Below, piece after piece: positions 33,012 through 51,758 of a DNA stretch of 64,000 bases; position 1 is the first letter of the stretch, and every line of letters starts with the position of its first letter. The stretch lies in contig NC_015672.1 of NCBI RefSeq assembly GCF_000218625.1, positions 1,959,451 to 2,023,450 on the forward strand, given 5' to 3'. Source of the stretch: Flexistipes sinusarabici DSM 4947. GTDB lineage: Bacteria > Chrysiogenota > Deferribacteres > Deferribacterales > Flexistipitaceae. The translations under genes and the position numbers were made by a program. The notes under the pieces are model-generated. The model did no database searches, had not been told where the DNA came from, and saw only the letters and a program-made list of their open reading frames with translations.

Positions 33012-33302
33012 TAAGACCTTTGAATAATTTGTTTTTCCATGTTTTAGGAAGTGGGTAGCACCAGCCGGAGGCTGGTAAATATATTGTGTATCACAAATTG
33101 ATTGACTTCGTCTAGCACCAGTCTTTTAGACTGGTAAATATGTTGTCAAACATTCAATTTAGCTATTTACATAGCTGCCAATCGGTCTTCGACCGATGCT
33201 AGTAGGATACATTACTTTAGTCCCGCAGGCCTGTGAATACTGAATTTCAAAAGAACGCTTGCCCGGCTAAAGCCGCGCTTCCTGAGTTATTCAAAGGTCT
33301 TA
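33012..33302. repeat. Inverted-repeat element with hairpin cassettes (291 bp)
   Basis: TAAGACCTTTGAATAA (33012-33027) and its perfect complement (33287-33302) form 16-bp ends. Inside are four hairpins: ACCAGCC-GGA-GGCTGGT (33060-33076), ACCAGTCT-TTT-AGACTGGT (33117-33135), ATCGGTC-TTC-GACCGAT (33181-33197) and CGGCT-AA-AGCCG (33264-33275). The first two share flanks TAGC and AAATATRTTG; the third lies in a reversed copy of the cassette. There is no gene inside. Confidence 0.8.
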
Positions 33303-47551: not shown

Positions 47552-48535
47552 TTAAATATTAAGGTCAAATAAAATCCTTCTGATCCCTCCAGCCAGCGTT
47601 TGTTTATAAGCTTTGGTAAATTCCTCAGAAGTGATTCTTCTTCCTATTAGATTATCTCCCGCAGCTTCTCCACAGGGGAAGTACTGATCCATAAGATTAA
47701 CATATGTACCTGAGGAAACTTCCTCAGCCAAAAATTTCATAATATTTCTGTCCCCGCTGTCCCTTGCGGCATCACAAGATGTCTTACCAAAAGTCCTTTT
47801 ACAGCAATATTTTTTTCATTAAGGTGCAGATCACCCTCCTGTCTGTGCTTTTGGATTACCACTTTTGTGGCATGCTCCCTGTAATTACTTGCATTGCGAG
47901 AGCTTTGAATAATTCTGATTCTCTTAAAAGCAAGATGAGCGATATCCGGTGAATCAATATCCAGTACCGACAATTTCAATATCTCCTCTCTGCTGTAGCC
48001 CAGGCGCTCACAGGCAACATCGTTCACTTCCAGCATATTGCCTTTTAAATCTATAATGAAAATAGCAACCCCCTGAATTATTGAAAATATCCCTGAACTT
48101 TTTTTCACTGTTGCGCAGCTCTTCCTCCGTAATCTTTCTTTCAAGATATGTTCCAAGCCTGTCAGCTACTGCATTAATGAGTTTTCGCTCTTCCTGTAAG
48201 AAGGGGCTTTCATAATCTTCTGATATATTTTGTACATAATATACGTCAATAACCCCCGCTTTCATGTCTTTCATAACGATATCGGCTGAAAGTCTCCATT
48301 CTGTTTTGCAAAAATTATCCGTTTTGAAATTCTTGTTATCAAAAATAATACTTGCACATGCGAATTCCGGATACTGCAATCCCTCCGGGATAATTTTCAC
48401 CACCGACTCCAGTGTATCATGTATGTCCAATTCACGTTTATCCATGATTTCAGAAATATGATAAAGGCAGTTAAGTTCTTTAACTCTTTCCTGAAGCTCT
48501 CTTTTTGTTTTTTCAATGCCTTCGTCACGATTCAT
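47552..48535 (-). pseudogene. Decayed chimera: GAF-PAS sensor 5' part joined to a radical SAM (PflX-like) 3' part
   Basis: From the ATG at 48535 (MNRDEGIEKTKREL) a GAF-type sensor domain is read. It shifts frame in a run of five G (48069-48073 on the minus strand); the other frame continues as a PAS domain (GVAIFIIDLKGNMLEVNDVACERLGYSREEIL). From about 47890 the sequence becomes a radical SAM enzyme tail of the PflX type (KHRQEGDLHLNEKNIAVKGLLVRHLVMP). It shifts again near 47740 and ends FLAEEVSSGTYVNLMDQYFPCG...GRRITSEEF. The radical SAM cluster motif is missing. A deletion joined two unrelated genes. Confidence 0.82.
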
Positions 48536-48553
48536 CGCTGCCCCTTTAGGCAA

Positions 48554-48853: not shown

Positions 48854-48884
48854 TTGACAAATAAGCAGTGAAATAGGTTACAAT
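48854..48884 (+). promoter_or_regulatory. Possible promoter of the acuI-dddL operon
   Basis: -35 TTGACA (48854-48859) and -10 TACAAT (48879-48884) are 19 bp apart, as for the clpC promoter. It lies 58 bp before the acuI ATG, and AAGGAGG precedes the start. Confidence 0.45.
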
Positions 48885-48941
48885 AAAGTTACATTTTAAC
48901 ACTATAAAATACTTACTTGCGATAAAATAAGGAGGATGCAT

Positions 48942-49937
48942 ATGTCAGAAAAATTTAAAGCTATGGTGATCAGTAAACAGGGAGACAAATTTATTAGGGA
49001 AATTAAAGAGAAATCTGTTGAAGAGCTGCCTGAAGGGGACGTTCTCATCAAGGTTCACTATTCTTCGCTAAACTTCAAAGATGCTCTATCAGCAATAGGG
49101 AACAAAGGTGTCACAAGAAACTTTCCTCATACCCCCGGAATTGACGCTGCAGGTATCGTCCAGAACTCAAAAGATTCAACATTTAAAGAAGGGGATGAAG
49201 TTTTAGTAACGGGATTCGACCTTGGGATGGAAACAGACGGCGGTTTTGGACAATTTATCAGAGTGCCTGCTGAATGGGTTGTAAAACTCCCCGAAGGTTT
49301 ATCTCTGAGAGAAAGTATGATTTTCGGAACCGCGGGTTTTACCGCCGGTCTTTCTGTATTTGCCCTTGCTGAAAACAATACAACACCGGAAGATGGAGAA
49401 GTTTTGGTGACAGGCTCAACCGGCGGTGTCGGCTCAATGGCAATCGCAATACTGTCCCAGGCGGGCTATGATCTCGTAGCCGTGACGGGTAAAAAAGAAA
49501 AAGAAGATTTTCTTAAAGAACTCGGAGCTATAAGAGTAATCAGCAGAGAAGAAGCTGACGATCAAAGCGGAAAACCGATGCTTAAAGGCGTATGGGGCGG
49601 CGCTGTGGATACCGTGGGAGGTAATATCCTTGCCACAGCAATAAAAAGTACAAAATACTCAGGAACTGTTACCACGTGCGGTTTAACACAATCCACCGAA
49701 TTCACATCCAGTGTATTCCCGTTTATACTAAGAGGAGTGAAACTTATCGGTATAGATTCTGTGCAACTGCCAATGGACAGAAGACTGCCTGTTTGGGACA
49801 AATTGGCAAACGAGTGGAAGCCCGACTCCCTTGAAACCCTAACAAATGAAATCGGTCTGGAAGAGGTCAGCGACAACATAGATTTGATACTCAAAGGGAA
49901 GTTGACAGGAAGAACATTAATAAATCTCTGGAAATAA
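48942..49937 (+). CDS. acuI: Acrylyl-CoA reductase / YhdH-YhfP type quinone oxidoreductase
   Basis: I start this at the ATG at 48942 (MSEKFKAMVIS), 6 nt after AGGAGG; 331 residues. It is a zinc-free MDR-family reductase of the YhdH/YhfP/AcuI group: YSSLNFKDALSAIGNKG, PHTPGIDAAGIV, GFDLGMETDGGFGQF, NAD(P)H motif TGSTGGVGSMAIA, SSVFPFILRGVKLIGIDSVQ. AcuI reduces acryloyl-CoA to propionyl-CoA and protects cells from acrylate made by DMSP cleavage. The next gene is a DMSP-lyase-type cupin, which makes the AcuI role more likely than generic quinone reductase. Confidence 0.88.
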   Translation: MSEKFKAMVISKQGDKFIREIKEKSVEELPEGDVLIKVHYSSLNFKDALSAIGNKGVTRNFPHTPGIDAAGIVQNSKDSTFKEGDEVLVTGFDLGMETDGGFGQFIRVPAEWVVKLPEGLSLRESMIFGTAGFTAGLSVFALAENNTTPEDGEVLVTGSTGGVGSMAIAILSQAGYDLVAVTGKKEKEDFLKELGAIRVISREEADDQSGKPMLKGVWGGAVDTVGGNILATAIKSTKYSGTVTTCGLTQSTEFTSSVFPFILRGVKLIGIDSVQLPMDRRLPVWDKLANEWKPDSLETLTNEIGLEEVSDNIDLILKGKLTGRTLINLWK

Positions 49938-49938
49938 A

Positions 49939-50565
49939 ATGCAGGCTCAAGGGACACTTTTATTTCTTCACGCCCTTAAAAGATGGTACAAAATCAAATC
50001 ATCCGGCGGCACTGAAGAAATAAAAAGACATATGGTGGAAGTGGACAATTTACTGGCAAAAGAACTCCCTTTGGATACCGTTAATGTGGCGATAAACCCA
50101 TCAGTTAAACCGGTATGCAAATATCTTGAGATTGCAATCGATAATGGTATGAAGCATAAAACAAACTATGTTGTTACTCATTTGCAAAAATTTACTTCCA
50201 TATTACACTGGCAATATGGATACGGAAAACTACCGGAAGAGATGAAAGAAAATTATGCTTACAGCGAAATTTTAGGCCCCCGGGGGCTCATAAAATCCTC
50301 TGATATCGCAGTCGGGGTTGTTTTACTCGCTCCTGGGGCCCTTTATCATTATCACGAACATCCTGATCTGACAGAATCATACCTGAACTTGTCAGGATAT
50401 TTTTCACAGAATGACCAGGCTGTCTACCCTCCTGAATCAATTGTCCTTAATAAGCCGGGAAAACCCCATAAAATCACAAATGATTCTTCTCAACCTTTGT
50501 TGTTAGCCTACGTATGGACAGGCAGTAAAGAAGCCATATCGGAATCAAGAATGGTTTTTGACTAG
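49939..50565 (+). CDS. dddL: DMSP lyase-type cupin (DddL/DddQ-like)
   Basis: The 208-residue protein has an N-terminal helical part and a C-terminal cupin. Key features match the DMSP-lyase family as I know it: HWQYGYGKLP, YAYSEILGPRGLI, then metal motif 1 with H137, H139, H141, E146 and Y148 (HYHEHPDLTESYLNLSG), SQNDQAVYPPESIVLNKPG, and motif 2 H177 (PGKPHKITN), ending LLLAYVWTG. It would split DMSP to dimethyl sulfide and acrylate. It starts 1 bp after acuI, as in the Rhodobacter acuR-acuI-dddL operon. Another cupin function is possible. Confidence 0.78.
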   Translation: MQAQGTLLFLHALKRWYKIKSSGGTEEIKRHMVEVDNLLAKELPLDTVNVAINPSVKPVCKYLEIAIDNGMKHKTNYVVTHLQKFTSILHWQYGYGKLPEEMKENYAYSEILGPRGLIKSSDIAVGVVLLAPGALYHYHEHPDLTESYLNLSGYFSQNDQAVYPPESIVLNKPGKPHKITNDSSQPLLLAYVWTGSKEAISESRMVFD

Positions 50566-50568
50566 AAG

Positions 50569-50618
50569 TATTTAGAGGTATTTAGAGGTAGTTAGAGGTA
50601 GTTAGAGGTAATTGTAGG
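50569..50618 (+). repeat. 10-bp tandem repeat (TATTTAGAGG/TAGTTAGAGG)
   Basis: Five near-identical decamers follow one another right after dddL: TATTTAGAGG twice, TAGTTAGAGG twice, and TAATTGTAGG. This is the cleanest tandem form of the GTAGTTGAGGT word family found at 47225 and 60640. Confidence 0.85.
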
Positions 50619-50629
50619 TTGTAGAAGTA

Positions 50630-50792
50630 AGCTTTGAATAATTCTGGAAGCAGGGCTTTAGCCCTGCAGGTTTACGGAACTATGCTTAAAAACAAAATGT
50701 ACCCCCTCTGCATCTCCCCCTAATCCAGGGGGAGAAGAAAGTCCCTTCCCCTATCTTAGGGGAAGGATAGGATGGGGTACTTATTCAAAGCT
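50630..50792. repeat. Inverted-repeat element (163 bp) with REP-like inside
   Basis: AGCTTTGAATAA (50630-50641) and its perfect complement (50781-50792) frame the hairpin CAGGGCTTTAGCCCTG (near 50651) and a CTCCCCCTAATCCAGGGGGA block (near 50713). It belongs to the same family as 33012-33302 and 41216-41383. The rest up to 50864 has no gene. Confidence 0.8.
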
Positions 50793-50864: not shown

Positions 50865-51758
50865 TTATCTATCCTCTGTCCTCTGCCTCCTTTGTATCGA
50901 CAGCACACACAAACCGGCAAAAATAAAAAATACACCCAGAAAACTTAAAAATGAAGGGGATTCATGCAGGACTAGAATACCGAGTAAAGTTGCAGTAAGC
51001 GGTTCAGCCAGTGACAGTGTCGCAGTTTCTGAAACTTTTATCAGTTTTAATCCTCTTGCAAAAAAGAAATATGACACACCGGTTGCAATTACACCCAAAT
51101 GTATAATGATAATAATTCCCTTTGGATTGAGAAGAGGAGCAACATCATAAATAAATAAAAACGGCGTTAGAAGCAAAGCTCCGCCCAGAAACAACACCGC
51201 CATAACCGCATTTACATCATTTGTTTCCAGAAGCTTTTTACTTACCATGGTATAGGAGGCGTAAAAAAAACCCGCTCCAATGCTAAGTATAATGCCGAAC
51301 ACATTATAATTAAGTCCGCTTCCCCTCGATCCATAAGTCGTCAATACCAGACCAAATATACCGATAAGTGTGGATATCATCCATTTTTTGCTGAGTTTTT
51401 CATTATAAAAGAGAAAAGCAAGGATACCCGCCGAGATGGGACCGCTGCCGATACCCACCATAGTCCCGATGGCAACTCCGGCATAACGCACACCGTAAAA
51501 AAAAGTAAGCTGGTAGGCAGCAACAGATAAAATACCGAATGATGTTATCAGAAAAGGCCATTTCTCAGTCTTAGAGAAACCTCCTTTGTAATATGCATAG
51601 AGAAAAAGAACAATTCCTCCCAGCAAAATCCTGAGTGCCCCGATAACAGACGAACTCACTTCAGCAGGTGCAAGCCCCTGAGAAGTACCTGTTGTACCCC
51701 AAAGCACAGCGGCAAGCATGACAAGAGCAAAACCTTTTGTTCTTTCAGCAGAGTTCAT
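50865..51758 (-). CDS. EamA/DMT-superfamily transporter
   Basis: The 297-residue protein has ten membrane helices in two EamA repeats (FALVMLAAVLWGTTGTSQGLAP and NYNVFGIILSIGAGFFYASYTMVSKKLL). The C-terminal repeat ends with the typical SLAEPLTATLLGILVLHESPSFLSFLGVFFIFAGL. It exports or imports small metabolites or drugs; the substrate cannot be read. It is convergent with acuI-dddL, and no co-regulation is evident. Confidence 0.9.
   Translation of the reverse strand: MNSAERTKGFALVMLAAVLWGTTGTSQGLAPAEVSSSVIGALRILLGGIVLFLYAYYKGGFSKTEKWPFLITSFGILSVAAYQLTFFYGVRYAGVAIGTMVGIGSGPISAGILAFLFYNEKLSKKWMISTLIGIFGLVLTTYGSRGSGLNYNVFGIILSIGAGFFYASYTMVSKKLLETNDVNAVMAVLFLGGALLLTPFLFIYDVAPLLNPKGIIIIIHLGVIATGVSYFFFARGLKLIKVSETATLSLAEPLTATLLGILVLHESPSFLSFLGVFFIFAGLCVLSIQRRQRTEDR

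Follow-up and report, generated by a model that had tools for sequence, protein, structure and literature searches.

The gene cluster acuR-acuI-dddL was described for Rhodobacter sphaeroides (PMC3017554), and linkage of acuI to dddL was at that time known in this species only (PMC3338564). Most DddL described so far come from Rhodobacterales and Rhizobiales; a single case is gammaproteobacterial (PMC3338564). Recruitment of acuI to ddd genes has occurred several times, and acuI is linked to dddY in many bacteria (PMC3338564). Members of the YhdH/AcuI reductase family shield E. coli and Ruegeria from acryloyl-CoA (PMC3338564). DddL homologues of the tested alphaproteobacteria are ~65% identical to one another (PMC3017554). 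In DddQ, Y120, H123, H125, E129, Y131 and H163 are essential (PMC4437653), and two tyrosines distinguish cupin DMSP lyases from other cupins (PMC5395565). The DMSP lyase-like cupin family also contains proteins of unknown function, according to the title of Lei et al. 2018 (cited in PMC8163506).

Here we compare with these systems a reductase–cupin gene pair of Flexistipes sinusarabici. The species is a strict anaerobe, moderately thermophilic and salt-requiring, that came from the brine interface at the Red Sea's Atlantis II Deep; strain MAS10T has a genome of 2,526,590 bp and belongs to the phylum Deferribacteres, now Deferribacterota (PMC3236037). In the original description, as relayed there, complex substrates alone support growth (PMC3236037).

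The reductase–cupin locus

The pair lies on the + strand of the window (the whole stretch of 64,000 nucleotides that was analysed). A reading made from the letters alone, which we call the sequence-only reading, had placed an AcuI/YhdH-type reductase 1 bp ahead of a 208-residue cupin, and the open reading frames are as it described. A predicted YhdH/AcuI-family NADPH-dependent acryloyl-CoA reductase of the MDR family (331 residues; 48942–49937, + strand) ends with its stop codon at 49937, and the ATG of dddL, encoding the predicted cupin DMSP lyase (208 residues; 49939–50565, + strand), follows at 49939. The reductase start at 48942 is also upheld: it is preferred over the mechanical ORF start at 48936 because a Shine-Dalgarno sequence, AGGAGG (48930–48935, + strand), gives a spacing of 6 bases to this ATG. 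No site immediately ahead of the reductase gene satisfied the rules of the promoter scan. By eye, TTGACA is seen near 48855, followed 19 bases on by TACAAT.

Among the ORFs of the window no acuR-like TetR gene adjoins the pair, in agreement with the sequence-only reading, and no DMSP-specific regulator or transporter was found adjacent to it. PAS-type sensor fragments lie 5' of the pair on the opposite strand; two overlapping ORFs in different frames (47737–48553, − strand), of which one encodes a PAS domain, resemble a single sensor gene broken by a frameshift. The dddL stop codon is immediately followed by an imperfect tandem array (50563–50622) in which the 10-bp unit TTAGAGGTAG occurs four to five times. 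Behind dddL, between it and the next gene, is a 163-bp MITE-like repeat (50630–50792, no strand assigned) whose 12-bp terminal inverted repeats, AGCTTTGAATAA, are perfect. Genome-wide, 41 complete or partial matches to this repeat occur, and it is used as a landmark only. Further inverted pairs of near-identical ends occur in the window, for example at 33016/33298 and 41218/41381. A convergent gene for an EamA/DMT transporter (50865–51758, − strand; PF00892, 148 bits) serves as the right-hand syntenic landmark, and no functional link to it is claimed.

Family and active site of the cupin

The cupin matches a single Pfam family, PF16867 (DMSP_lyase), at 114.6 bits (E=4.9e-33, cut-off 27). Its best match among 72,556 plasmids searched with tblastn is the DddL of Rhodobacteraceae SC52 (E=3e-37 over 96% of its length), and the next kinds of match, annotated lyase-like, begin at ~1e-7. 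Scanning the genomes of 84,980 species with two short patterns only, a non-exhaustive search, gave nine alphaproteobacterial DddL relatives with 34–40% identity to the cupin, a range from a comparison that excludes the assayed R. sphaeroides and Sulfitobacter DddL sequences. When DddQ pieces and lyase-like cupins are included in a tree, the Flexistipes cupin groups within DddL (support 96/97), apart from DddQ and from the rhizobial lyase-like cupins; its branch is long, at 2.2 changes per column. As judged from its sequence, the cupin adds a divergent member to the known DddL family, in a new phylum. The proposal of a DddL-type lyase in a non-proteobacterial setting is supported by the profile match, by best matches that are DddL rather than another cupin clade, and by the presence of the catalytic Tyr and His positions. 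Neither an earlier report of a DddL-type lyase in Deferribacterota nor a paper naming Flexistipes and dddL together was found in the literature searched, the coverage of which ends short of subscription papers.

Further DddL were found neither in 385 relatives across the domain nor in 386 genomes of one other phylum, a largely identical sample searched without a positive control. Two-cupin proteins of ~396–400 residues in another Deferribacterota family (f7; L003, L007) were considered as DddL and rejected; their PF16867 scores exceed the cut-off only weakly (29–44 bits) and their start resembles a signal peptide. On a Gemmobacter fulvus plasmid (locus L014, 2863–3546), a lyase-like cupin lies amid CoA-transferase, enoyl-CoA hydratase, AMP-binding and ABC transporter genes, a differing setting that suggests another substrate.

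Residues H139, H141, E146, Y148 and H177 match the cupin motifs GX5HXHX4EX6G and PXGX2HX3N. The sequence-only reading had named these five as DMSP-lyase-like together with H137, and it is the last that fails: position 137 is mostly proline in relatives, and conservation falls on Y136 instead. Some 50 alignment columns are invariant over the DddL set, including Y136, H139, H141, E146, Y148 and H177, and these six align with Y120, H123, H125, E129, Y131 and H163 of DddQ, respectively. All ligand positions (three histidines and one glutamate) and both active-site tyrosines are present in the Flexistipes cupin.

Structure prediction gave an AlphaFold2 model with a pLDDT of 87.8. DMSP lyases head the list of its PDB relatives, with DddQ at Z 20.9–21.9, DddY at 16.7–17.0 and DddK at 11.3–11.6; other cupins score 11.4 or lower. 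The predicted fold supports the family and leaves the substrate unfixed, since DddK and unrelated cupins score alike (Z ~11) and the fold alone is therefore no proof of substrate. A solved DddL structure was not found in the sequence searches.

Origin of the reductase and history of the pair

The reductase matches TIGR02823 (YhdH acrylyl-CoA reductase subfamily) at 456.8 bits (E=2.9e-137, cut-off 297) and stays below the AcuI equivalog NF051456 (365 bits vs cut-off 440), which SC52 AcuI passes at 523 bits. Its PDB relatives include AcuI 5gxe/5gxf. YhdH is found above the cut-off in 30 of the 51 Deferribacterota genomes. The reductase is 98% identical to that of the Flexistipes genome G016, 79% to that of G015, a congener without dddL, 47–61% to those of most other Deferribacterota and 43–44% to alphaproteobacterial AcuI. 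The tree places it with Flexistipes, clustering with other Deferribacterota, and a clade shared by Flexistipes and alphaproteobacterial AcuI is rejected under the model used (log-likelihood difference 127.6, p-AU 1.8e-5). Together, the identities, the tree placement and the rejected clade argue that the reductase is native to Deferribacterota and of the YhdH type. Of the parallel with Rhodobacter acuR-acuI-dddL drawn by the sequence-only reading, the adjacency of reductase and lyase holds; the pair is not that operon transferred whole, because its reductase does not reach the AcuI equivalog cut-off and is one of the YhdH proteins native to Deferribacterota.

The lyase occurs in 2 of 51 Deferribacterota genomes, both Flexistipes (the source genome and G016). 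G015, the third Flexistipes genome (88% complete), has yhdH and the EamA gene on one contig with no cupin gene between them; the interval holds one opposite-strand ORF, the DNA of which reads like a diguanylate cyclase. Because yhdH and the EamA gene share this contig, the absence is no assembly gap. In both carriers dddL is intact; between them dN is 0.014 and dS 0.137, as expected from sequence comparison for a gene under selection. The codon and base composition of dddL fits the host genome and this, with the long branch, argues against a very recent arrival. The simplest reading is that some Flexistipes gained the gene; dddL may alternatively have been lost in G015 alone. The presence of the lyase in two Flexistipes only, and its absence at the same place in the third, argue that dddL arrived from outside and settled behind the resident yhdH, so that the Rhodobacter-like arrangement had a separate origin here, as far as the sequences indicate. 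The repeated recruitment of acuI (PMC3338564) fits such a separate assembly of foreign lyase and resident reductase. The SC52 dddL lies in a TetR-oxidoreductase-dddL operon, as in Rhodobacter; this acuR-acuI-dddL set is carried on the mobilizable plasmid pSC52_2 (locus L013, 4265–6633), and a near-identical copy is found in Fluviibacterium aquatile (L020, 4244–6633). Plasmid pSC52_2 is a possible vehicle for the spread of dddL.

Other histories were weighed against this one. Transfer of the whole acuI-dddL pair from an alphaproteobacterium would be in keeping with the gene order seen in Rhodobacter, SC52 and Thioclava, but we give it next to no credence: the reductase is much closer to that of the congener without dddL than to alphaproteobacterial AcuI and scores below the AcuI equivalog, and for the reductase such a transfer is refuted by the tree test under the model used (p-AU 1.8e-5). 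It is also quite improbable that dddL was ancestral in Deferribacterota and survived in no more than two Flexistipes genomes. Absence of a gene does not tell when it was gained, and the long lyase branch and a base composition fitting the genome are compatible with an ancestral gene; however, the carriers all belong to one genus of the phylum, and the relatives found are alphaproteobacterial.

A different kind of doubt concerns function, namely that the cupin is a DMSP lyase-like protein that has drifted to another substrate, such as a beta-substituted carboxylate or a different betaine, next to a housekeeping reductase. The long branch would agree with such drift, as would the rhizobial lyase-like cupins, which are located in NADH:flavin oxidoreductase/ETF clusters and not with acu genes, and the fact that most Deferribacterota have YhdH without any lyase. 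We nevertheless see only a small chance of it, given that the six catalytic positions and ~50 invariant DddL columns are kept and that the gene lies 1 bp behind a reductase that would handle the lyase product, in the Rhodobacter order. The most likely activity of the cupin, as predicted, is cleavage of DMSP to DMS and acrylate.

Predicted pathway and comparison with known systems

We consider it likely that the locus encodes a DddL-type DMSP lyase, horizontally acquired behind native yhdH and feeding a route from acrylate to propionyl-CoA. Several points weigh against this reading: the long branch; an identity of 34–40% to alphaproteobacterial DddL, well under the ~65% shared by the tested homologues; the proteins of unknown function in the lyase-like cupin family; a locus lacking acuR and any DMSP-specific regulator or transporter; and the described growth on complex substrates alone. 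From family membership, residues, fold, gene order, distribution, reductase origin and the presence of the other genes we infer activity, substrate, metal, co-transcription and pathway flux. Horizontal transfer would have brought the lyase gene into part of Flexistipes, directly behind yhdH. DMSP would probably enter through BCCT or betaine-type ABC transporters of the genome, in which family searches turned up one intact carrier of the BCCT type along with five OpuAC-type binding proteins. A divalent metal on H139, H141, E146 and H177 would position DMSP for a beta-elimination in which one of the conserved tyrosines, Y148 or Y136, would serve as base, yielding dimethyl sulfide, acrylate and a proton. 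An acyl-CoA synthetase would then activate acrylate to acryloyl-CoA; genome family searches did not pin down an acrylate-CoA ligase, the best acetate-CoA-ligase-like protein scoring below the AcsA and PrpE cut-offs. The native YhdH/AcuI-family reductase, presumably co-transcribed with dddL, would convert acryloyl-CoA to propionyl-CoA, which could pass onward through methylmalonyl-CoA mutase. The sequence-only reading had seen no propionate genes; none is visible at the locus, but this mutase is encoded elsewhere in the genome (1,286 bits, cut-off 876). A second BCCT gene (genome 62299–63743; L087/L088), adjoining an OpuAC binding protein gene, consists of two overlapping frames with a stop and looks broken.

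That a strictly anaerobic, moderately thermophilic member of the Deferribacterota from brine cleaves DMSP by an independently assembled yhdH-dddL operon, and draws on the reduction of acrylate to dispose of electrons or to obtain carbon, is a tentative proposal that we regard as possible rather than probable; if true, it would constitute a DMS source in anoxic hypersaline water outside the proteobacteria. Found outside the known phylum, in a strict anaerobe that can be cultured, a divergent DddL would extend the DMS-making range to anoxic hot brine, and the Flexistipes protein is a candidate for a heat-tolerant DddL. The reductase–lyase arrangement would have arisen a second time, when a lyase gene from elsewhere landed behind a resident reductase gene; such a recurrence suggests that toxicity of the lyase product is what makes the pairing important.

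DddY of Desulfovibrio acrylicus and Alcaligenes, a periplasmic protein of ~400 residues, is the DMSP lyase known from an anaerobe. It shares the cupin fold (Z 17), whereas the Flexistipes cupin has 208 residues and, by eye, no apparent signal peptide. DddQ of Ruegeria and Roseovarius (PDB 4la2, 5jso, 4b29, 5cu1) has the same fold (Z ~22) and the six catalytic residues, but differs in its ~20% identity, in HXHX3E where Flexistipes has HXHX4E, and in its separate tree branch. The reductase belongs to TIGR02823 along with E. coli YhdH, AcuI 5gxe, Geobacillus 1xa0 and Bacillus YhfP; unlike AcuI, it is below the equivalog cut-off and clusters with Deferribacterota. The DddL proteins of Rhodobacterales (R. 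sphaeroides 2.4.1, Sulfitobacter EE-36, Thioclava and SC52) are alike in full-length homology, HXHX4EXY, invariant columns and the order of reductase then lyase, whereas Flexistipes stands apart by the 34–40% identity noted above, a shorter N terminus, another phylum and a strictly anaerobic life. Relative to acuR-acuI-dddL of R. sphaeroides, Flexistipes has no acuR and a reductase of independent origin, but the two loci agree in adjacency, strand and short gap.
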